A stretch of 64,000 nucleotides of DNA from Rhodospirillaceae bacterium (lineage in GTDB: Bacteria; Pseudomonadota; Alphaproteobacteria; SHVZ01): the NCBI GenBank assembly GCA_016792585.1, contig JAEULB010000049.1:1-64000 (forward strand), given 5' to 3'. The position numbers and the translations under genes were made by a program. Numbering within the stretch: the first letter of the stretch is position 1; every line of letters begins with the position of its first letter. Positions 5,110 to 18,227 of the stretch are shown here, one piece after another. Below the pieces are notes generated by a model. The model saw nothing but the letters and a program-made list of their open reading frames with translations. It searched no databases and was not told the DNA's origin.

Positions 5110-5511
5110 TCAGCCCTCTTTCGGTTCGAAGGTCAGCGACACGCCGTTCATGCAGTAGCGGAGCCCGGTCGGCTTCGGCCCGTCCGGGAAGACGTGTCCG
5201 AGATGGCCGCCGCAGCGCCTGCAGTGCACCTCGACGCGGCGCATGCCGTAGCTGTTGTCCTCGGTGGTCGCGACCGCGTCCTCGGCGATCGGCGCGAAGA
5301 AGCTGGGCCAGCCGGTGCCGCTGTTGAACTTCGCCTCGGACGAGAACAGATCCAACCCGCATCCGGCGCAGCGGAAGGTGCCTTGCCGCTTCTCACCGTC
5401 GAGCGGGCTGGTGAAGGCGCGCTCGGTCCCGTGCTCGCGAAGCACGCGGAACTGCTCAGGCGTCAGGCAGCCCTTCCATTCGGTCTCGGTCTTGGGCACG
5501 TCGTCGGTCAT
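5110..5511 (-). CDS. msrB: Peptide-methionine (R)-S-oxide reductase
   Basis: Reduces methionine-R-sulfoxide in proteins back to methionine. The 133-residue protein has the normal MsrB length, the structural zinc pairs CAGC and CRRC, the GTGWPSF motif and the catalytic cysteine in RYCMNGVSLTFEP. No signal peptide is present, so it is cytoplasmic. It is transcribed away from the amino acid ABC transporter at 5604 and is followed almost at once by the BtuF-like gene, which probably depends on it for translation. Confidence 0.97.
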   Translation of the reverse strand: MTDDVPKTETEWKGCLTPEQFRVLREHGTERAFTSPLDGEKRQGTFRCAGCGLDLFSSEAKFNSGTGWPSFFAPIAEDAVATTEDNSYGMRRVEVHCRRCGGHLGHVFPDGPKPTGLRYCMNGVSLTFEPKEG

Positions 5512-5603
5512 GGTCGCACCATCCTGGTCCAGATATCCGGATCATACCCGGTCTCGCCCCCGCTTCCTTGCGTCGTCTTTTCCGCCCGTGCCATCATTGG
5601 GCG

Positions 5604-6386
5604 ATGAAGAACGGGTCGCGTCCGGCGGTCGCCGTCGAAGGCCTCACCAAGCGCTTCGGACCGCTCGAGGTGCTGAAGGGCATCACGCTCGAAGCCCATG
5701 ACGGCGAGGTGCTGGCCATCCTCGGATCGTCCGGATCCGGCAAGTCGACCCTTCTCCGCTGCATCAACATGCTGGAAGTGCCGGACGGCGGCACCGTGGC
5801 CATCGCCGGCGAGCCGATCCTGCTGAAGGAAAAGCGCGGCGGCGGGCGCGAGCCGGCCGATGGCGCCCAGCTCGACCGGCTCCGCCAGAAGCTCGGCATG
5901 GTGTTCCAGAGCTTCAATCTCTGGTCCCACCTGACGGTACTGGAGAACGTCACCGAGGCGCCCGTGCACGTCCAGAAGCGCCCGAAGGCGGAAGCGACCG
6001 AGGAAGCGCTGGTACTGCTCGACAAGGTCGGCCTTTCCGACAAGCGCAACCACTACCCGTCCCAGATCTCCGGCGGCCAGGCCCAGCGCGCGGCGATCGC
6101 GCGTGCGCTGGCGATGCGCCCGCAGCTGATGCTGTTCGACGAGCCGACCTCGTCGCTCGATCCCGAGCTGGTCGGCGACGTACTCCGCGTCATCCGCACG
6201 CTGGCCGAGGAAGGCCGGACGATGATGCTGGTGACCCACGAGATGGCCTTCGCCCGCGAGGTCGCCAGCCGCGTGATCTTCCTCCACCAGGGCCGGGTCG
6301 AGGAGGAAGGCCCGCCGGCGCAGGTGTTCGGGGCGCCGAAGTCCGAGCGCTGCCGGCAGTTCATCTCCAGCCAGCTCCGGTCTTAA
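5604..6386 (+). CDS. Polar amino acid ABC transporter, ATP-binding protein (HisP/OccP type)
   Basis: Energises uptake of a polar or basic amino acid or opine. Walker A GSSGSGKSTLL, Q-loop MVFQSFNLW, signature SGGQAQRAAIARAL, Walker B LMLFDEPTSSLDPE and switch [10 protein letters not shown] are all intact. The insert between Walker A and the Q-loop (KEKRGGG...) is typical of the HisP/OccP branch. I place the start at the ATG at 5604 because it fits the family N-terminus; an in-frame ATG at 5568 would add 12 residues. It is the first gene of the four-gene transporter set with the binding protein and two permeases downstream. Confidence 0.94.
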   Translation: MKNGSRPAVAVEGLTKRFGPLEVLKGITLEAHDGEVLAILGSSGSGKSTLLRCINMLEVPDGGTVAIAGEPILLKEKRGGGREPADGAQLDRLRQKLGMVFQSFNLWSHLTVLENVTEAPVHVQKRPKAEATEEALVLLDKVGLSDKRNHYPSQISGGQAQRAAIARALAMRPQLMLFDEPTSSLDPELVGDVLRVIRTLAEEGRTMMLVTHEMAFAREVASRVIFLHQGRVEEEGPPAQVFGAPKSERCRQFISSQLRS

Positions 6387-6393
6387 GCGCGCC

Positions 6394-6418
6394 TAGCCGG
6401 TTGCAGAAAGACCGGCTA
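6394..6418. terminator. Hairpin between transporter ATPase and binding-protein genes
   Basis: A perfect 8-bp inverted repeat TAGCCGGT / ACCGGCTA with a 9-base loop lies 7 bases after the ATPase stop and about 36 bases before the binding-protein start. No T-run follows, so it is more likely an RNA stability or attenuation element than a strong terminator. Confidence 0.45.
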
Positions 6419-6454
6419 TCGTTTGCACAACAACCTGTAGAGGAGGCTTCGTCA

Positions 6455-7300
6455 ATGAAGATCACCCGTCTTGTCGTTGTCGCCGGCGCCGTGCTCGCGC
6501 TCGGCCTCACCGCCTTCGACGCCTCGGCACAGATGCGCAAGGTCAAGGTCGCGACCGAAGGCGCCTATGCGCCGTGGAACTTCGTCAACAGCGCCGGCAA
6601 GCTCGAAGGCTTCGAGCTCGACCTCGGCGCCGAGCTCTGCAAGCGCGCCAAGTTCGACTGCGAGTTCGTCGCCCAGGACTGGGACGGCATCATGCCGTCG
6701 CTGCTGGCCAAGAAGTACGACGCGATCATGGCCGGCATGAACATCACGCCGAAGCGCATGGAGACGATCAACTTCACCACTGCCTATGCCGCCGGCGCGC
6801 ATGGCTTCCTGGTGATGAAGAACTCGTCGCTCACCAAGATGCCGGGCGGCGAGTTCAGCCTGACCAAGGATCCGGCCGGCGCCGAGAAGGCGATCGCCGA
6901 CCTCAAGCCGCTGCTCAAGGGCAAGATCCTCGGCGTCCAGGCCTCGACCACCAACCTCGCCTGGGCCGAGAAGTACTTCAAGGACGTGGCCGAGATCCGC
7001 GAGTACAAGACCACCGAGCAGCACGACCTCGACGTCGCCGCCGGTCGCATCGACGCGGCCGTGGTCGCGCACTCGGCCGCCAAGGCGACGATGGAGACCG
7101 CGACCGGCAAGGACATGGCGATCGCGGGCCCCGCGTTCTCGGGCGGCATGCTCGGCCTCGGCGTCGCCGTCGGCATTCGCAAGGAGGACAACGACCTCAA
7201 GGCCGCCTTCGACGACGCGGTTAAGTCGGCGATCGCCGACGGCACCATCAAGCGGCTGTCGGAGAAGTGGTTCAAGGTCGACATGACGCCAAAGTCGTAA
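6455..7300 (+). CDS. Polar amino acid ABC transporter, periplasmic binding protein (HisJ/OccT type)
   Basis: Periplasmic receptor of the 5604-8984 transporter, family 3 solute-binding protein. A signal peptide (MKITRLVVV... ending near ASA-QM, about 24 residues) precedes VKVATEGAYAPWNF, FELDLGAELCKRA, QDWDGIMPSLLAKKYDAI and MNITPKRMETINFT, the usual lysine/arginine/ornithine/histidine/opine-binding signatures. The start is the ATG at 6455 behind GAGGAGG; an upstream in-frame codon at 6401 would precede the signal peptide. Mature length of about 257 residues is normal. The exact ligand cannot be read from sequence. Confidence 0.94.
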   Translation: MKITRLVVVAGAVLALGLTAFDASAQMRKVKVATEGAYAPWNFVNSAGKLEGFELDLGAELCKRAKFDCEFVAQDWDGIMPSLLAKKYDAIMAGMNITPKRMETINFTTAYAAGAHGFLVMKNSSLTKMPGGEFSLTKDPAGAEKAIADLKPLLKGKILGVQASTTNLAWAEKYFKDVAEIREYKTTEQHDLDVAAGRIDAAVVAHSAAKATMETATGKDMAIAGPAFSGGMLGLGVAVGIRKEDNDLKAAFDDAVKSAIADGTIKRLSEKWFKVDMTPKS

Positions 7301-7320
7301 GCAGCGACATGCATCGTACC

Positions 7321-7453
7321 CCCTCTCCCGCGTCGTACGCGGGGGAGGATTGGGGTGGGGGCGAGCGACGCGAGGTCGGACCGCGAATGCCGGCAACGAC
7401 GTTCCCCGCATCGTTCGCCCCCACCCTGCCCTCCCCCGCTTCGCGGGAGAGGG
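7321..7453. repeat. Large imperfect palindrome (REP/RPE-like intergenic element)
   Basis: Two arms of about 45 bases (7321-7368 and 7411-7453) are near reverse complements of each other: CCCTCTCCCGCG...GGGGGAGGA...GGGGTGGGGGCGAGCGA on the left and TCGTTCGCCCCCACCC...CTCCCCCGC...GCGGGAGAGGG on the right. Each arm also has its own small hairpin (CCCGCGTCGTACGCGGG on the left, CCCGCTTCGCGGG on the right). It fills most of the gap between the binding-protein stop and the first permease gene, the classic place for REP-like elements. No second copy is evident in this window. Confidence 0.75.
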
Positions 7454-7488
7454 TTCCGATTCAGATGCCGCTCCAGCGTTCCTGACGA

Positions 7489-8268
7489 ATGCCGCCGAAG
7501 TCGTTCCTCGAGCTGATGCAGTGGGGCCCGCAGGGCTGGCTCGACGAGATGACCTTCGCGACCGGGCTGACGCTCGCGGTGGCGATATGTGGCTTTCTGT
7601 TCGGACTCGCCTTCGGAACCCTGGCGGCGGCGGCCAAACTCTCGAGATCGACGATCCTCCGACGCGCTGCCGACGCCTACACCACCGTCTTCCGCGGCGT
7701 CCCCGACCTTCTCGTCATCTATCTCTTCTACTTCGGCGGCAGCGCCGTGGTGACGGCGATCGGTGCGGCGCTGGGATATTCCGGCTTCATCGGACTCCCC
7801 GGATTCCTGGTCGGCACGCTGGCGATCGGCATCGTCTCCGGCGCCTACCAGACCGAGGTGATCCGCGGCGCCTATCTCGCGGTACCGCAGGGCGAGGTCG
7901 ACGCCGCGCGCGCGTTCGGCATGTCGGGCTTCCGGCTGCTTCGACGCATCATCGGCCCTCAGGTTCTCCGCTACGGGCTGCCGGGCATGGGAAACATCTG
8001 GCAGCTGGTGCTTAAGGAGAGCGCGCTGGTCGCCGTGGTCGGGCTCACCCTCATCTTCTACGAGGTCAGGATCGGGGACCTGGTGCTGATCTACGAGACC
8101 CGCTTCTCGGATCTGCTGCGCCAGGCGCATGTCGCCGCCGGCTCTACCCGCCAGCCGTTCGTCTTCTACATCACCGCGGTCGCGTTCTACCTGGTGCTGA
8201 CCACCGCTTCGACCTGGGCCTTCCGACAGGCCGAGACCTGGGCGACGCGCGGCATGCGTCGGGCCTGA
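7489..8268 (+). CDS. Polar amino acid ABC transporter permease (HisQ/OccQ type)
   Basis: Inner-membrane permease of the 5604-8984 transporter. The 259-residue protein has about five membrane segments and the cytoplasmic EAA loop EVIRGAYLAVPQGEVDAARAFGMSG, which docks on the ATPase. It starts at ATG 7489, after the palindromic element and a short leader, and is followed 5 bp later by the partner permease. The length is slightly above the usual 230-240 residues because of a longer loop near IGDLVLIYETRFSD and before the last membrane segment. Confidence 0.93.
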   Translation: MPPKSFLELMQWGPQGWLDEMTFATGLTLAVAICGFLFGLAFGTLAAAAKLSRSTILRRAADAYTTVFRGVPDLLVIYLFYFGGSAVVTAIGAALGYSGFIGLPGFLVGTLAIGIVSGAYQTEVIRGAYLAVPQGEVDAARAFGMSGFRLLRRIIGPQVLRYGLPGMGNIWQLVLKESALVAVVGLTLIFYEVRIGDLVLIYETRFSDLLRQAHVAAGSTRQPFVFYITAVAFYLVLTTASTWAFRQAETWATRGMRRA

Positions 8269-8273
8269 CGGAG

Positions 8274-8984
8274 ATGGATCTCGACTTCCTCTGGACGACC
8301 TTCGTCCGATTGATCGGCGGCGTCCCGCTGACGCTTCAGCTCGCCTTCTCGTCGATCGTGCTCGGTCTCGCGTTGGCCGTGCTGCTGGCGGTGATGATGC
8401 GAAGCTGGTTCACCCCGCTGGCCTGGGCCGCCGACGGTTTCGTCTTCGTCTTCCGCGGCACGCCGCTCCTGGTGCAGGTCTTCCTGATCTACTACGGCCT
8501 CGGGCAGTTCCGTCCGGTGCTCGACGACATGGGCATCTGGTGGTTCTTCCGCTCGCCCTATTACTGTGCGCTGCTCGCGCTCACGCTGAACACGGCGGCC
8601 TACGGCGCCGAGATCGTCCGCGGCGGGCTGCAGTCGGTGCCGCACGGCCAGATCGAGGCCGCTCGTGCCTTCGGCATGTCGGGCTTCACGCTCTATCGGC
8701 GGATCGTGGCGCCGATCGCGCTCCGCCAGGCGCTGCCGGCCTACGGCAACGAGATCATCCTGATGATCAAGGCGACGTCGCTCTGCTCGACGATCACGCT
8801 GATGGAAGTGACCGGCTTAGCCCACCGGATCATCTCGGAGACCTTCCGGTCGTTCGAGGTGTTCTTTGTCGCCGGCGCGATCTATCTCGCGATCAACTTC
8901 GCGATGAGCCGGCTGATCGGCCTCGCCGAGGCCCGGATCGCGCCGGACCTCGATCAGGCCAGCCGCCCGGCGGAGGTGCATTGA
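8274..8984 (+). CDS. Polar amino acid ABC transporter permease (HisM/OccM type)
   Basis: Second permease of the transporter, expected to form a heterodimer with the 7489 product. The 236-residue protein has the family pattern: VPLTLQLAFSSIVLG, VFVFRGTPLLVQVFLIYYG (the FRGTPLL motif), EAA loop EIVRGGLQSVPHGQIEAARAFGMSG and a C-terminal membrane helix. The start codon lies 5 bp after the previous stop. It ends 4 bp from the convergent katE stop. Confidence 0.94.
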   Translation: MDLDFLWTTFVRLIGGVPLTLQLAFSSIVLGLALAVLLAVMMRSWFTPLAWAADGFVFVFRGTPLLVQVFLIYYGLGQFRPVLDDMGIWWFFRSPYYCALLALTLNTAAYGAEIVRGGLQSVPHGQIEAARAFGMSGFTLYRRIVAPIALRQALPAYGNEIILMIKATSLCSTITLMEVTGLAHRIISETFRSFEVFFVAGAIYLAINFAMSRLIGLAEARIAPDLDQASRPAEVH

Positions 8985-8988
8985 TTTC

Positions 8989-11421
8989 CTAGACGCGCGG
9001 CGGATCCGTCTCGCGCTCGAAGACGCGGTGCCTGGTCAGCGCCTCGACGAATGCCGGCATGGCGGCGGTGAGATCGTCTCCCGTGTGGCGGAGCAGGCCT
9101 GGATCGGCATCGCCCGACGGCAGCTCCACAGGGATGCCCGCCTGGTCGGGAAGAGCGGCCGCGGCCCCAAGCAGCAGGATCGGCTTGCAGTGGCGGTACT
9201 GGTCCTTCAGGAACTCCATCGCGTGGCCGCTCTGCGAGAGCGCCTCGGCCGAGCCGGCGCCATCCGGAACCACCATCGCATCCCACAGCACCGCCGGTGC
9301 CGCCTCGAGCGAGACCTCGATCTCGATCGGGTCGCCGGTCGTGCTGTCGACCTGCCCCATCTTGATGCCGACGAAGCGCGGCACCGCGCCCTGCCCGGAG
9401 AGCGACTGGTGGATGGACTTCGCGGACTCGCCATCGACGCCGTCGGCAACGATCACCGCGACCCGCCAGGTCTTGATCCCCTCGGTGCCGGGGCGGACCG
9501 TCAGCGAAAGCGCCTCGGACGCCTGCACCTCCGGCTTCGCGACCCGCCTCAGCACCTTGGGCAGAGGATCCGGAAGCGCGATCATGCCGAGACCGTCGGC
9601 GACCGCCTGGGCCAGGACGTCATCGACGTTGCGGAGCTGCGCGACGACGCGTTGGCGCACCGCGACCGTCTGCACCTTGGTCAGCTCGAAGCGGAAGGCG
9701 CGGATGATGTGCTGCTTCTCGATCTCGGTCTGGCTGTTCCAGAACAGAGTCGCCTGGGTGTAGTGGTCGGCGAACTTCTCGGGCTTGCCGCGGACCTTGT
9801 GCTCCTCCGCCGGCTGCGGGAAGGAGCGGAAGCCCATCATGCCTGCCTGGAACGGACAGCCGCCGCCCAGCGAATTCGGCTCGTAGGCGACGCGGCCGCG
9901 GGCGATCGCCTGGCGGTGCATCCCGTCGCGCTGGTTGTTGTGCACCTGGGCGACCGGCGCATTGATCGGGATCTCGTGGAAATTCGGTCCACCGAGGCGC
10001 GAGATCTGCGTGTCGACATAGGAGTGGATGCGGCCTGCGAGCAGCGGATCGTTGGTGAAGTCGAGGCCGGGTACGATATGCGCGGCGCAAAAAGCCACCT
10101 GCTCGGTCTCGGCAAAGAAGTTGTCGGGGTTGCGGTTCAGCACCAACCGGCCGATCGGCTGCACCGGCACCAGCTCCTCGGGCACGATCTTGGTCGCGTC
10201 CAGCACGTCGAAGGAGAACCTGTCGGCTTCCTGCTCGGTGAAGACCTGGACACCGAACTCCCATTCCGGATAGGCCCTGGCCTCGATCGCCTCCCAAAGA
10301 TCTCGACGGTGGAAGTCGGAGTCGGCGCCGGAGATCTTGACCGCTTCGTCCCAGGCGAGCGAGTGCGTGCCGGCCGAAGGATTGAGGTGGAACTTGACGA
10401 AGCGGGACGCGCCTTTCTCGTTGATGAAGCGGAAGGTATGGACGCCGAATCCTTGCATCATCCGATAGCTGCGCGGGATGGCGCGATCCGACATCACCCA
10501 CATCAGCATGTGGGTGGCCTCGGGCATCAGCGAGACGAAGTCCCAGAAGGTGTCGTGCGCGGACGCCGCCTGCGGCATGCCGTGATGCGGCTCAGGCTTC
10601 ACCGCGTGGATCACGTCCGAGAACTTCATCGCATCCTGGATGAAGAAGACCGGGATGTTGTTGCCGACCAGGTCCCAGTTGCCTTCGTCGGTGTAGAACT
10701 TGATCGCGAAGCCGCGGACATCGCGGGCAGTGTCGGTCGAACCGCGCTCTCCGGCGACGGTCGAGACGCGGACGAAGACCGGCGTGCGCTTGCCGGCCTC
10801 GGCGAAGATCGAGGCGCGGGTCAGGTGCGTCAGCGGCTCGTAGCACTCGAAGAACCCGTGCGCGCCCGATCCGCGGGCATGGACGACGCGTTCCGGGATC
10901 CGTTCGTGGTCGAAATGGGTGATCTTCTCGCGGAGGATGAAATCCTCGAGCAGCGACGGGCCGCGCAGCCCCTGCTTCAGGCTGTTCTGGTTGTCCGCGA
11001 TCTGAACGCCCTGGTTCGTGGTGAGCGCACGCCCGCTCGAGTCGACCCGCACGCGATCGAGCGGTCCGTTGGTGGGGTTGAAGCTCTTCTGCGGGTTGCC
11101 GTGGCCGACCTTCTCGGAGGCGTTCATTTCCGAGAGCGTGCTGCCGCTCATCGTCGGATGCGGCGGCTCGACCGTCTGCCCGGTCGCCGGCGTCATCGCC
11201 GCGGCGCCGAACTCGCTGGGCTTCGCCGCATTGAACGGGAACGCACCCGCAACCGCTTCGGTGCCGGCGACTTTCGCGGTCGCGGCGTCGACGACGCCTT
11301 GCTTGCGTGCGGAACCGCTGACCGTCGCGCGCGAACCGGGTCGGGCTTTCGGAGGTGAGGACTTTGCGCTTTTGCTGCCGGGCGTGGACTTCGACGAGGT
11401 CTTCTTCTTGCCGGCCGGCAT
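8989..11421 (-). CDS. katE: Large-subunit (clade 2) catalase HPII
   Basis: Haem catalase that disproportionates hydrogen peroxide. The 810-residue protein is of the large-subunit type: a long lysine/serine/alanine-rich tail (about residues 1-130), the catalase barrel with essential His181 ([13 protein letters not shown]) and Asn254 ([13 protein letters not shown]), the haem-ligand tyrosine Tyr468 in [15 protein letters not shown], and from about residue 640 a C-terminal DJ-1/PfpI-like flavodoxin-fold domain. E. coli HPII is 753 residues, so the N-terminal tail is long. It has no signal peptide and is monocistronic, convergent with the ABC transporter. Stationary-phase or general-stress control is typical of the family but not shown here. 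Confidence 0.97.
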
Positions 11422-13523: not shown

Positions 13524-13973
13524 ATGGTTGCCATCACGATCAACGGCAAGGTCTACAACACCAATGCCGATCCACGGACGCCGCTGCTCTGGGTGCTCCG
13601 CGACGACCTCGGCCTGACCGGAACCAAGTACGGCTGCGGCGTCGCCCAGTGCGGCGCCTGCACGGTCCATATCGACGGCGTCGCCAACCGCTCCTGCCAG
13701 GTGCCGCTGAACTCGGTCGGCCGCCGCAAGGTGACGACGATCGAGGGGCTCGCCGAGAACGGCAAGATGAACAAGGTCCAGGAGGCCTGGCTCGCCCAGG
13801 ACGTGCCGCAATGCGGCTACTGCCAGAGCGGCATGATCATGGCCGCGACCGCCCTCCTCAAGACCACGCCGAAGCCGACCGACGAGGACATCGACGCGGC
13901 GATGACCAACATCTGCCGCTGCGGCACATACCAGCAGATCCGGGCCGCCATCCACGAAGCGGCGAAGGGTTGA
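13524..13973 (+). CDS. [2Fe-2S] small subunit of a xanthine-dehydrogenase-family molybdenum hydroxylase (IorA type)
   Basis: Electron-transfer subunit of a two-subunit molybdenum hydroxylase. The 149-residue protein has both iron-sulfur domains: a plant-ferredoxin-type cluster ([15 protein letters not shown] plus a later Cys) and the all-helical C-terminal cluster (QCGYCQSGM ... CRCGTYQQI). It has no signal peptide, as expected for a subunit exported by piggy-backing on a Tat-bearing partner. It is followed 14 bp later by the catalytic subunit. Together they match isoquinoline 1-oxidoreductase / membrane-bound aldehyde dehydrogenase-type enzymes; the substrate is not identifiable. Confidence 0.93.
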
Positions 13974-13987
13974 GGGAGGATCCAGCC

Positions 13988-16150
13988 ATGACCACTCAGA
14001 CCGCTCTCAATCGCCGCACCTTCCTCGCCAGCGCCGCCGCCGTTTCCGGCGGCTTCTCGCTGGGCTTCGGCGTGCCGTTCGGCGGGGCCGCGGCGCAGAC
14101 CGCCGACGTGCCCGAGGTCAACGCCTGGGTCGTCGTCAAGGCGGACGACACCGTCGTCATCCGCATCGCCCGCTCCGAGATGGGCCAGGGCACGCTGACC
14201 GGCCTCGCCCAGCTCGTCGCCGAGGAGCTGGAGTGCGACTGGTCCAAGGTGACCACCGAATACCCGACGCCCGGGCAGAACCTGGCGCGCGGCCGCGTCT
14301 GGAAGAACTACTCGACCGGCGGCAGCCGCGGCATCCGCGAGTCCCACGACTACGTCCGCCAGGGCGGCGCCGCCGCCCGCGAGATGCTGGTCCAGGCGGC
14401 CGCCAAGGAGTGGAACGTGCCGGCCGCCGAATGCTCGGCCGCGAACAGCGTGATCACCCACAAGGGCTCGGGCAAGACTACGACCTACGGCAAGGTCGCG
14501 GCCGCCGCGGCGAAGATCGAGCCGCCGAAGGAAGTGAAGCTCAAGGATCCGAAGGACTGGAAGATCGCCGGCAAGGGCCTGAAGCGCCTCGACACCAAGG
14601 ACAAGCTGACCGGCGCCCAGATCTACGGCATCGACCTCAAGCTCCCGGGCATGCTGGTCGCAACCATCCGCGACACGCCGGTCAACGGCGGCAAGCTCAA
14701 GAGCTTCGACGCCGCGAAGGTCGAGAAGATGCCGGGCGTCAAGAAGGTGGTGCAGGTCGAGAACGCGGTCGCCGTGGTCGCCAATACCTTCTGGCAGGCG
14801 CGGACCGCGATCAATGCGCTCCCGGCCGAGTGGGACGCGGGCGCCGGCGGCAAGGTCTCCAGCGACGACATCACCGCGATGCTGGCCGAGGGCCTCACCG
14901 CCGAGAACGCTTTCATCGGCAACAGGGCGGGCGACGCCAAGTCGGCGATCGCCGGAGCGGTGAAGAAGGTCGAGGCGACCTACAGCTATCCCTACCAGCA
15001 CCACGTGACCATGGAGCCGATGAACTGCACGGCTCTCTGGACCGCCGACAAGTGCGAGATCTGGGGACCGACGCAGAACGGCGAGGCGGCGCTCGCCGCC
15101 GCGGCCGAGGCATCGGGCCATCCGGTCGCCAAGTGCGACGTGCACAAGACGCTGCTCGGCGGCGGTTTCGGCCGGCGTGGCCGCTCGGACTACGTCCGCC
15201 AGGCGGTGCTGATCGCCAAGCAGATGCCGGGCACGCCGATCAAGCTCGTCTGGTCGCGCGAAGAGGACATGACGCATTGCGCCTACCATCCGGTGACACA
15301 GTGCAAGCTCACCGCCGGCCTCGACGCCTCGGGCAAGGTCGTCGGCATGCATATGCGCATCTCCGGCCAGTCGATCCTGGCCTCGCTCAATCCGCAGGGC
15401 CTGCAGAATGGCATGGACCCGGTGACCTTCCAGGGTCTCAACCCAGGCGGCGCCGAGGGCCAGTTCGGCTACGAGATCCCGAACCTGCTGATCGACCACG
15501 CGATGCGGAACCCGCATGTGCTGGCAGGATTCTGGCGCGGCGTGAACCTCAACCACAACGCCATCTACGTCGAATGCTTCATCGACGAGATGGCGAAGGC
15601 GGCGGGCCAGGATCCGCTCGAGTTCCGCCTGAAGATGGGCAAGGAACGCCACATGGCGGTGCTCAAGGCGGTCGCCGAGAAGGCCGGGTACGGCAAGGCG
15701 CCGGCCGGGCACTTCCACGGCCTCGCCCAGATCATGGGCTTCGGCAGCTATGTCGCCGCCTGCGCCGAGGTGTCGGTCAGCGACCAGGGCCAGCTCAAGA
15801 TCCACAAGATCGTCGCCGGCACCAACTGCGGCCACGCCGTCAATCCGGCGCAGATCGAGCGCCAGATCGCCGGCTCGTTCGTCTATGGCCTGACGGCCGC
15901 GCTCTACGGCGAGGTGACGGTCAAGGACGGCGCGATCGAGCAGACCAACTTCGACACCTACAACATGATGCGCATCGACGAGATGCCGAAGGTCGAATGC
16001 GTGATCATGCCGACCAACGACTTCTGGGGCGGTGTCGGCGAGCCGACGATAGCTGTCGCGGCCCCGGCGGTCCTGAACGCGATCTTCGCCGCGACCGGCA
16101 AGCGGGTACGCTCGCTGCCGGTGATGAACCACGACCTCCGGAAGGCCTAG
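13988..16150 (+). CDS. Tat-exported molybdopterin-binding large subunit (IorB type) of a molybdenum hydroxylase
   Basis: Catalytic subunit of a periplasmic xanthine-dehydrogenase-family enzyme that hydroxylates an N-heterocycle or aldehyde. The 720-residue protein starts at ATG 13988 with a twin-arginine signal (NRRTFLASAAAVSGG). Molybdenum-cofactor contacts are visible: GPTQNGEAA, GGGFGRRGRSDYV, GFWRGVNLNHNAIYVE, and the catalytic-glutamate loop GGVGEPTIAVAAPAV near the C-terminus. IorB-type enzymes have no FAD subunit and usually pass electrons to a c-type cytochrome. Here the next gene downstream (50 bp, across a UUCG hairpin) is a SoxX-like cytochrome. The substrate is unknown. Confidence 0.92.
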   Translation: MTTQTALNRRTFLASAAAVSGGFSLGFGVPFGGAAAQTADVPEVNAWVVVKADDTVVIRIARSEMGQGTLTGLAQLVAEELECDWSKVTTEYPTPGQNLARGRVWKNYSTGGSRGIRESHDYVRQGGAAAREMLVQAAAKEWNVPAAECSAANSVITHKGSGKTTTYGKVAAAAAKIEPPKEVKLKDPKDWKIAGKGLKRLDTKDKLTGAQIYGIDLKLPGMLVATIRDTPVNGGKLKSFDAAKVEKMPGVKKVVQVENAVAVVANTFWQARTAINALPAEWDAGAGGKVSSDDITAMLAEGLTAENAFIGNRAGDAKSAIAGAVKKVEATYSYPYQHHVTMEPMNCTALWTADKCEIWGPTQNGEAALAAAAEASGHPVAKCDVHKTLLGGGFGRRGRSDYVRQAVLIAKQMPGTPIKLVWSREEDMTHCAYHPVTQCKLTAGLDASGKVVGMHMRISGQSILASLNPQGLQNGMDPVTFQGLNPGGAEGQFGYEIPNLLIDHAMRNPHVLAGFWRGVNLNHNAIYVECFIDEMAKAAGQDPLEFRLKMGKERHMAVLKAVAEKAGYGKAPAGHFHGLAQIMGFGSYVAACAEVSVSDQGQLKIHKIVAGTNCGHAVNPAQIERQIAGSFVYGLTAALYGEVTVKDGAIEQTNFDTYNMMRIDEMPKVECVIMPTNDFWGGVGEPTIAVAAPAVLNAIFAATGKRVRSLPVMNHDLRKA

Positions 16151-16200: not shown

Positions 16201-16653
16201 ATGCCGATACGGGACATGCTTCTCGGCGCCATCGTTGCGGCTCTGCTCGCAACCCCTGCTCTTGCCGCTGATCCGCGTCGCCCCTATGTCGTCAATGGCG
16301 ACGAGATCAAGGCCTCGCTGACCGGCCGCGCTGGCGATCCGGCACGCGGCCGCGCTATCGTCGCCAACCGGCAGGTCGGGCTTTGCCTCCTCTGCCACAC
16401 TGGGCCGATCCCGGAGGAACGCTTCCAGGGAGACTTGGCTCCGGATCTCGGCGGCGCCGGCGGCCGTTGGACGGAGGGGCAGCTGCGGTTGAGGGTCGTG
16501 GATGCCGAAAGATTCAATCCGACGACGATCATGCCGCCCTACTTCCGGACCGAGAAGCTTGCCCGCGTCGCCAAGGCGTTCGCCGACAAGCCGATCCTCT
16601 CGGCCGAGCAGATCGAGGACGTCGTCGCCTACCTGGCGACCTTGAAGGACTAG
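16201..16653 (+). CDS. soxX: Sulfur-oxidation c-type cytochrome SoxX
   Basis: Small monohaem cytochrome c of the SoxAX complex, which oxidatively couples thiosulfate sulfur to the carrier SoxYZ in the periplasm. The 150-residue protein has a cleavable signal peptide ending near ALAA, one haem site CLLCH (Cys62, Cys65, His66) and a Met ligand in NPTTIMPPYFR (Met111), which is the SoxX pattern. It is followed 4 bp later by soxY. It could also serve as electron acceptor for the upstream molybdenum hydroxylase; that is inference from position only. Confidence 0.9.
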   Translation: MPIRDMLLGAIVAALLATPALAADPRRPYVVNGDEIKASLTGRAGDPARGRAIVANRQVGLCLLCHTGPIPEERFQGDLAPDLGGAGGRWTEGQLRLRVVDAERFNPTTIMPPYFRTEKLARVAKAFADKPILSAEQIEDVVAYLATLKD

Positions 16654-16657
16654 ACCG

Positions 16658-17134
16658 ATGAACGCTCCGATGAGACCTGCCGTCAGCCGCCGCGGCTTCC
16701 TCGCGGGATCCGGTGCCGCGGCAATGATCACCGTCCTCCCGGTTACGGCGGCGCATGCGACGCCCGAGACGCTGGATGCGGCGATCCGCGAGGTGACCGG
16801 CGGCAAGAAGCTGAATGCCGGCAAGGTCGCGCTCGATATCCCGCCGCTGGTCGAGAACGGCAACGCCGTGCCGATGAAGGTCTCGGTCGAGAGCCCGATG
16901 AGTGCCAAGGATCACGTCAAGGCGATCCATGTCTTCAACGAAAAGAACCCGCAGCCGCACGTGCTGAACGCCTATATCGGGCCGCGCGCCGGCAAGGCGA
17001 TCGTCCAGGCGCATATCAAGCTCGCCGACTCCCAGCGCGTGGTCGCGATCGCCGAGCTCAGCGACGGGACCTTCTGGAGCACGTCGGCCGAGGTGATCGT
17101 CACCATCGCCGCCTGCACCGAGGAGGTGACCTGA
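16658..17134 (+). CDS. soxY: Sulfur carrier protein SoxY, with atypical C-terminus
   Basis: Subunit of the SoxYZ carrier that holds sulfur intermediates on a C-terminal cysteine. The 158-residue protein has a twin-arginine signal (SRRGFLAGSGAAAM) and the SoxY beta-sandwich (VPMKVSVESPMSAKDHVKAI, AEVIVTI). In characterised SoxY proteins the chain ends in a flexible GGCGG arm. Here it ends AACTEEVT: one cysteine (Cys153) is kept, but the flanking glycines are replaced and four residues follow it. The stop overlaps the soxZ start (TGATG). The SoxY assignment is strong; whether it works like canonical SoxY is open. Confidence 0.9.
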   Translation: MNAPMRPAVSRRGFLAGSGAAAMITVLPVTAAHATPETLDAAIREVTGGKKLNAGKVALDIPPLVENGNAVPMKVSVESPMSAKDHVKAIHVFNEKNPQPHVLNAYIGPRAGKAIVQAHIKLADSQRVVAIAELSDGTFWSTSAEVIVTIAACTEEVT

Positions 17135-17454
17135 TGGCCAACGCTCTCATCCGCATGCCGAAGACGGCCAAGCGCGGCGAGGTGATCGAGATCAAAACCC
17201 TGATCCAGCACCCGATGGAGACCGGGTATCGCGCCGGGATGAACGGCACGCTGATCCCGCGCAACATCATCGAGGACTTCGTCTGCACCTATAACGGGGT
17301 CGAGGTCTGCCGGATGAAGCTGTCCTCGGCGATCGCCGCGAACCCGTTCATCTCGTTCTTCACCACCGCGACCGAGACCGGCGTTCTCTTCTTCCGCTGG
17401 ACCGGCGACGAGGGCTTCAAGGTCGAAGAGACCGTCTCGATCAGCGTCGCATGA
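17134..17454 (+). CDS. soxZ: Sulfur carrier complex partner SoxZ
   Basis: Partner of SoxY in the periplasmic sulfur carrier. The 106-residue protein has the typical size and fold markers (RGEVIEIKTLIQHPMETGYR, PFISFFTTATETG, FRWTGDEGF). It has no signal peptide, as expected, because SoxZ is exported with Tat-bearing SoxY. The start overlaps the soxY stop by one base and the stop overlaps soxA as ATGA, so soxY-Z-A translation is coupled. Confidence 0.95.
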   Translation: MANALIRMPKTAKRGEVIEIKTLIQHPMETGYRAGMNGTLIPRNIIEDFVCTYNGVEVCRMKLSSAIAANPFISFFTTATETGVLFFRWTGDEGFKVEETVSISVA

Positions 17455-18227
17455 GCCTTGGGTCCGCCGGACACGTCCTACTCGGTCTTCTGGTCTCGCT
17501 GACGGCACCGGCCCTGGCCCAGGCGCCCGGCGAACGGCGATCCGGCTATCACGACATGAGCCCGTCGCTGCAGGCGATGCAGGACGACGAGATCGCCAAC
17601 CCGGGCATGCTCTGGGTGCTGGACGGCGAGGCGATGTGGAACCGGAAACAGGGTGCCGCCGCCAAGTCCTGCGCCGACTGCCACGGCGCGGTCTCCACCA
17701 TGGCCGGCGTCGCCGCCCGGTACCCGGCCTTCTCCGGCGCGAACCCGCGGCCGGTCGATCTCGCGCAGCGGATCAATCTCTGCCGCACCGACAACCAGAA
17801 GGCCGACGCCTACCCTTACGAGAGCAAGGAGCTGCTGTCGCTGACCGCGGTCGTGACCCGGCAGTCGAAGGATCTGCCGATCGCGCCGCCCGCCGATCCG
17901 CGCCTGGCACCGTTCGTCGCCGCCGGTGCCGACCTGTTCACGCAGCGCCAGGGACAGCTCAACCTCTCCTGCGCCCAGTGCCACGAGGACAATGCCGGAC
18001 GGAAGCTCGCCGCGGCGACGATCCCGCAGGCACATCCGATCGGGTATCCGATCTACCGCCTGGAATGGCAGAGCCTGGGCTCGCTGCAGCGACGGCTCCG
18101 CAACTGCCTGATCGGCATGCGCGCCGAGCCTTATGCCTACGGTGCCGACGAGTATGTCGCGCTCGAGCTCTACCTGGCGTCCCGCGCCCGCGGCATGCCG
18201 ATCGAAGCGCCCGGCGTCCGTCCTTGA
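17451..18227 (+). CDS. soxA: Dihaem cytochrome SoxA (L-cysteine S-thiosulfotransferase subunit)
   Basis: Catalytic subunit of SoxAX, which conjugates thiosulfate to the SoxY cysteine. The 258-residue protein has a signal peptide ending near ALAQ, two haem sites CADCH (74-78) and CAQCH (174-178), and the active-site cysteine Cys219 in RLRNCLIGMRAEPY. It is therefore the dihaem form found in Paracoccus-type systems. It ends the plus-strand cluster; the next gene is convergent. No soxB (sulfate esterase) and no soxCD lie anywhere in the window. Confidence 0.94.
   Translation: MSLGSAGHVLLGLLVSLTAPALAQAPGERRSGYHDMSPSLQAMQDDEIANPGMLWVLDGEAMWNRKQGAAAKSCADCHGAVSTMAGVAARYPAFSGANPRPVDLAQRINLCRTDNQKADAYPYESKELLSLTAVVTRQSKDLPIAPPADPRLAPFVAAGADLFTQRQGQLNLSCAQCHEDNAGRKLAAATIPQAHPIGYPIYRLEWQSLGSLQRRLRNCLIGMRAEPYAYGADEYVALELYLASRARGMPIEAPGVRP

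Follow-up and report, generated by a model that had tools for sequence, protein, structure and literature searches.

The window (the whole stretch of DNA that was analysed, 64,000 nucleotides from a Rhodospirillaceae bacterium) carries on its forward strand an operon that combines genes of a periplasmic molybdenum (Mo) hydroxylase with genes of the Sox type. It comprises an iorA-like gene for the [2Fe-2S] small subunit (13524-13973), an iorB-like gene for the large subunit with a twin-arginine leader (13988-16150), soxX for a c-type cytochrome (16201-16653), soxY (16658-17134), soxZ (17134-17454) and soxA for a dihaem protein (17451-18227). The domains PF02738, PF20256, PF01799 and PF00111 are found above their cut-offs, which identifies IorAB as a Mo hydroxylase of the xanthine-oxidase type, and the closest solved structure to IorB is an aldehyde dehydrogenase large subunit (8gy3). 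The name IorAB (isoquinoline 1-oxidoreductase) is used here for the type of subunit only and does not denote a substrate. SoxX (TIGR04485, 75.3 bits, cut-off 61), SoxZ (TIGR04490, 84.8 bits, cut-off 76) and SoxA all exceed the standard family cut-offs. The haem sites and the active-site cysteine of SoxXA are present, as is the SoxYZ pair.

The soxY gene translates into 158 amino acids with the C-terminal end AEVIVTIAACTEEVT. A Tat-type signal is located at residues 9-27, and SRRGFL near the N-terminus represents a twin-arginine leader; the match to the TAT signal model remains under the cut-off of that model. The Pfam SoxY domain covers residues 44-153 (107.6 bits, cut-off 28.4). The sole cysteine of the protein, the carrier residue Cys153 (codon 17114-17116), is part of the C-terminal arm AACTEEVT (17108-17131). 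The translation bears out the initial annotation, which had described a Tat-type SoxY with a single cysteine and exactly this ending, except that the tail behind the cysteine counts five residues (TEEVT) and not four. The start codon of soxZ (ATG at 17134) overlaps the soxY stop codon, and the GGAGG at 17122-17126, within the final soxY codons, is likely the ribosome-binding site of soxZ.

It had also been supposed that the arm has lost its flexibility. The AlphaFold2 model of SoxY has a mean pLDDT of 79.9 and adopts the SoxY fold, with the best matches to SoxY of Paracoccus pantotrophus (2oxh, TM-score 0.87 by target). In this model, which was built from a 20-row alignment and is a weak test of arm flexibility, residues 151-158 reach a pLDDT of about 52 and are predicted to be disordered; two small alanines precede the cysteine. 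Since the arm is predicted to be disordered, a reduced flexibility is not indicated and the model lends no support to that supposition.

SoxY from the window is a member of a protein family that already bears a name in NCBIfam, TIGR04487 ("SoxY-related AACIE arm protein", SoxY_para_1), whose library entry assigns no function. It matches the complete profile (1-146 of 146) with 207.6 bits (cut-off 172), has the AAC-x-acidic arm of the family (AAC-T-E-EVT) as well as its Tat-type leader, and exhibits no essential difference from it. Public plasmid sequences from Neorhizobium galegae and Methylobacterium use the same name for the protein, and its operon context is the same there. In contrast, the profile of true SoxY (TIGR04488) is missed with 108.9 bits (cut-off 125). 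The true SoxY proteins, known from the structures of SoxYZ (2ox5, 2oxg, 2oxh) and SoxYZ-SoxB (4uwq) of P. pantotrophus, share the fold, the single C-terminal cysteine, the pairing with SoxZ and the Tat-type leader with the protein from the window. However, their GGCGG arm is not present here and the protein from the window has no soxB partner. The carrier family TIGR04557 (quinoprotein dehydrogenase-associated SoxYZ-like carrier) is similar insofar as it is a Sox-type carrier tied by its family name to a dehydrogenase and not to SoxB, but it is a fused YZ protein, and SoxY from the window reaches only 52.9 bits with this profile, far below the cut-off of 140. In the open-access literature searched, no paper pairs 'SoxY' with 'AACIE'.

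The departure from GGCGG could in principle be due to a sequencing error or frameshift at the 3'-end of soxY, or to a decaying pseudogene, and is itself the sole point in favour of such an explanation. The reading frame is intact and overlaps with the soxZ start, the same arm occurs in more than 100 loci, and the catalytic residues of the partner proteins are invariant. Moreover, genus-mates end with AACVEDLxQ and dozens of independent genomes with AACxE. Sequencing error and pseudogene are therefore ruled out, with a probability that is practically negligible. A recent loss or degradation of the GGCGG arm was rejected as well, since the AAC type is a widespread and already named paralogue family.

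Within 114 distinct AAC-type SoxY sequences, alanine is found at Cys-1 in all 114 and at Cys-2 in 101, and glutamate or aspartate at Cys+2 in 110. On a SoxY tree for which the columns of the arm were left out, the AAC-type proteins all fall on one side of a single branch (support 82/85, moderate), so that the arm state needs only a single change. The AAC tail marks a single group on this tree. One could assume that the acidic tail has no role in the protein and is just a by-product of the ribosome-binding site of soxZ within the soxY end, where GAGGAG is read as Glu-Glu. The Shine-Dalgarno sequence of soxZ is indeed located inside the tail codons in 99 loci, as it is in the window, and this alone could favour GAG codons. 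However, 15 loci have this sequence elsewhere or show none, and in 11 of them the residue at Cys+2 is nonetheless acidic; six of these 11 possess an aspartate encoded by GAT or GAC. This retention of the acidic residue favours selection on the protein. Furthermore, the by-product explanation leaves the invariant alanine at Cys-1 unexplained. We regard it as unlikely that the acidic tail is devoid of a role in the protein, and the ribosome-binding site can be only a part of the story.

Loci L218 and L083 have deviating arms. The IorAB-linked SoxY of locus L218 (reverse strand, SoxY match 9272-9721) has the arm GAC-V-E-D followed by approximately 35 extra residues, which places its carrier cysteine away from the C-terminus. 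The divergent locus L083 encodes a SoxY ending with GACEGLGFTY together with soxZ, beside oppositely oriented IorAB genes, and its IorB is only 36% identical to IorB from the window.

The gene order iorA-iorB-(cytochrome c-soxF)-soxX-soxY-soxZ-soxA is conserved and recurs across the Alphaproteobacteria, and it is identical on two public plasmids. A small cytochrome c and SoxF are usually encoded between iorB and soxX in the alphaproteobacterial AAC operons, and the solved structures nearest to this SoxF belong to flavocytochrome c sulfide dehydrogenases (5n1t, 481.7 bits). Bradyrhizobium, Reyranella and other Alphaproteobacteria commonly carry the operon, which extends to Betaproteobacteria and Rokubacteria. 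Beyond iorAB, cytochrome c, soxF and soxXYZA, no additional conserved gene that might hint at the substrate was found in the operon.

The two types of SoxY have different partners. In the AAC-type loci (n=115), iorB is present in 102, soxF in 90, soxA in 113 and soxB in none, whereas the GGC-type loci (n=25) contain soxB in 16 cases and iorB in none; since the AAC-type loci originate mostly from one search for close relatives and many belong to Bradyrhizobium, they are not independent of each other. If only the class survey and the two plasmids are considered, iorB occurs in 33/37 and soxB in 0/37 of the AAC loci, compared to 0/25 and 16/25 of the GGC loci. Three of the four AAC loci without iorB (L025, L050, L072) run off the end of their contig, which leaves one clear exception (L064). 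The changed partner set suggested by the initial annotation is therefore found at the level of the operon. The open-access literature searched contains no paper that describes an IorAB-Sox operon, and none that mentions isoquinoline 1-oxidoreductase together with both soxY and soxA. For SAR324, a flavocytochrome c flanked by SoxY/SoxZ has been described, and isoquinoline 1-oxidoreductase was reported separately and not as part of one operon (PMC4782131). Over more than 100 loci, IorAB replaces SoxB in a near-exclusive manner, which goes beyond what the family name conveys.

A SoxF-type flavocytochrome c sulfide dehydrogenase, related to the flavocytochrome c sulfide dehydrogenase/SoxEF structures 1fcd, 3vrd and 5n1t, is thus encoded in most AAC operons, and in the genome of the window it is found elsewhere. 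In the genus of the window, SoxF is not part of the operon. In the assembly of the window, SoxF and a cytochrome c are encoded on another contig (L095:3906-7063), apart from the sox operon, and adjoin a sulfur transporter of the YeeE/SoxT type (PF04143). YeeE-like SoxT proteins have been reported to mediate the import of sulfur for oxidation (PMC11582611).

The absence of soxB, which had been noted before, extends to the whole assembly (88.8% complete), where the best matches of 155 and 56.6 bits remain below the cut-off of 550, and to all seven genomes searched in the same order (0/7 over cut-off); matches below the cut-off of the soxB profile also arise in genomes such as E. coli. The best match for soxC in the assembly is 42.5 bits (cut-off 420). 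In comparison to the alphaproteobacterial Sox system (SoxXA-SoxYZ-SoxB-SoxCD), SoxXA and SoxYZ with their catalytic residues are shared, but the genome of the window has neither SoxB nor SoxC above the cut-offs and there is IorAB in the operon. Judged by its gene content, the window encodes a variant of the Sox system that lacks SoxB.

The possible link between the AAC arm and a missing soxB does not hold for entire genomes. In the class survey, soxB is present in 2/21 genomes with an AAC-type SoxY and in 36/364 others, which is no difference, and six of eight named genomes carrying the AAC operon have soxB elsewhere. The mutual exclusion of AAC arm and soxB is thus a property of the operon and not of the genome. 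For instance, both systems occur in Bradyrhizobium; in the B. diazoefficiens genome analysed here, one AAC-type operon is accompanied by one soxB-linked SoxY and a weak third SoxY match. In genus-mates of the window (L075-L079), we observed an orphan GGC-type soxYZ pair; the stretch that was read contains neither soxB nor soxA nor soxX, and the pair was not found in the assembly of the window. That the GGC-type SoxY of these genus-mates is a partner of SoxB was rejected, since the soxYZ genes are orphans in the loci read and soxB is absent.

It would also be conceivable that the operon encodes an ordinary thiosulfate-oxidising Sox system, with soxB located elsewhere or in an assembly gap and with the AAC arm as a neutral variant. 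The limited completeness of the assembly and the regular scores of SoxX, SoxZ and SoxA would be in agreement with this. However, no genome searched in the order and only two of the 21 AAC genomes of the class have soxB above the cut-off, and the soxB-adjacent SoxY genes that were read are all of the GGC type. In addition, thiosulfate oxidation in B. diazoefficiens, which possesses soxY1 as well as soxY2, requires only the former (PMC5748708). Judging from the genome of another strain, soxY2 in the published strain would be of the AAC type. The published soxY genetics are compatible with a role of the AAC-type carrier outside ordinary thiosulfate oxidation, without being a proof of it. An ordinary Sox system with a neutral arm variant is very improbable.

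The active sites of the partner proteins are invariant or nearly so. In SoxA, both CxxCH motifs (C74, C174) and the active-site Cys219 are conserved in 111/111 aligned relatives. In the aligned relatives of the other partners, the CxxCH motif and Met111, the Met ligand, of SoxX are kept, as are the eight cluster cysteines of IorA, the motifs GGGFGRR and GVGE of IorB (the latter with the catalytic Glu690 of the aligned query) and Cys190 and Cys298 of SoxF. As far as can be judged from sequences, it is shown that there exists a distinct SoxY paralogue group with an AAC-x-E/D arm in a conserved iorAB-sox operon, in which all catalytic residues are kept. A difference was found next to the active site of SoxA. 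The residue at position +3 from the active-site cysteine is glycine or alanine in 111/111 aligned relatives and glutamine, asparagine or aspartate in 14/14 SoxB-linked SoxA proteins; the SoxA structure 1h31 has an aspartate at this position. The arm of SoxY enters SoxA at the active-site cysteine, and the change at Cys+3 might therefore suit an arm or adduct of a different size. Since the changes in SoxA and in the SoxY arm fall on the same branch, they represent one correlated event and not an independent proof.

In the Sox system, SoxXA oxidatively couples a sulfur compound to the cysteine of SoxY, and SoxB hydrolyses the terminal sulfonate after this loading. The remaining sulfane is oxidised by SoxCD, which is a Mo enzyme and is absent in truncated Sox systems. 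PMC5748708 likewise describes the loading of SoxYZ. Since SoxXA and SoxYZ are retained here, SoxB and SoxC were not found and another Mo enzyme is encoded in the operon, the economical reading would be that the carrier is loaded with a compound other than thiosulfate, or that it is handled differently by IorAB after loading. An AAC-type SoxY in a conserved operon with a Mo enzyme instead of SoxB probably serves a sulfur pathway that differs from ordinary thiosulfate oxidation, and the operon is probably not the route of the cell from thiosulfate to sulfate.

We propose, with a probability of roughly 0.6, that the product of soxY is the carrier subunit in a Sox-like system of the periplasm that functions independently of SoxB and in which IorAB acts in place of SoxB/SoxCD. 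In an oxidative reaction, SoxXA would still attach a sulfur compound (a thiol or a sulfane sulfur) to Cys153 of SoxYZ, and this compound might plausibly be supplied by the flavocytochrome c sulfide dehydrogenase, although SoxF lies outside the operon in the genome of the window. Both the AAC arm and the corresponding change in SoxA would be in keeping with another adduct or with another docking partner. IorAB would then oxidise the carrier-bound or the released substrate, although a shared operon is no proof of contact, and the electrons would exit through c-type cytochromes.

It is also possible that IorAB and SoxXYZA share the operon only because of common periplasmic cytochromes or co-induction, and that IorAB oxidises an aldehyde or N-heterocycle of its own and never meets SoxYZ. 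The closeness of IorB to an aldehyde dehydrogenase large subunit and the small c-type cytochromes in many of the operons speak for such a separate role. However, the link of iorB to the AAC-type carrier is near-exclusive and absent from the 25 GGC-type loci, and the arm of the carrier and the active-site neighbourhood of SoxA differ together with the new partner. We therefore consider two unconnected functions rather unlikely, yet the most serious competitor to IorAB acting in the Sox-like system. A further-reaching but tentative idea is that IorAB-SoxXYZA(-SoxEF) constitutes a separate and widespread SoxB-free Sox pathway, in which the xanthine-oxidase-type Mo hydroxylase might act directly on a substrate, perhaps an organic sulfur compound, while it is attached to the cysteine of SoxY. 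If this direct action is true, the oxidation of carbon would be joined to Sox-type carriage of sulfur.

The presence of Sox genes is routinely taken as a sign of thiosulfate oxidation. The genes soxX, soxY, soxZ and soxA of the window would pass for an incomplete thiosulfate pathway, but this group of carriers adjoins a Mo hydroxylase and never SoxB in the loci read.

Upstream of the operon, at about 5110-8977 of the window, an ABC transporter is encoded (ATPase, binding protein and two permeases), which is conserved only in the genus of the window, with msrB beside it on the opposite strand. This region also contains the palindromic repeat CTCTCCCGCGTCGTACGCGGGGGAGG (7323-7348), of which there are 11 copies in the assembly and 44 in a genus-mate (≤2 mismatches). 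In places the copies are arranged as inverted pairs with a spacing of approximately 100-120 bases, for example in the interval from iorB to soxX in two genus-mates, and the repeat looks like an element of the REP type.
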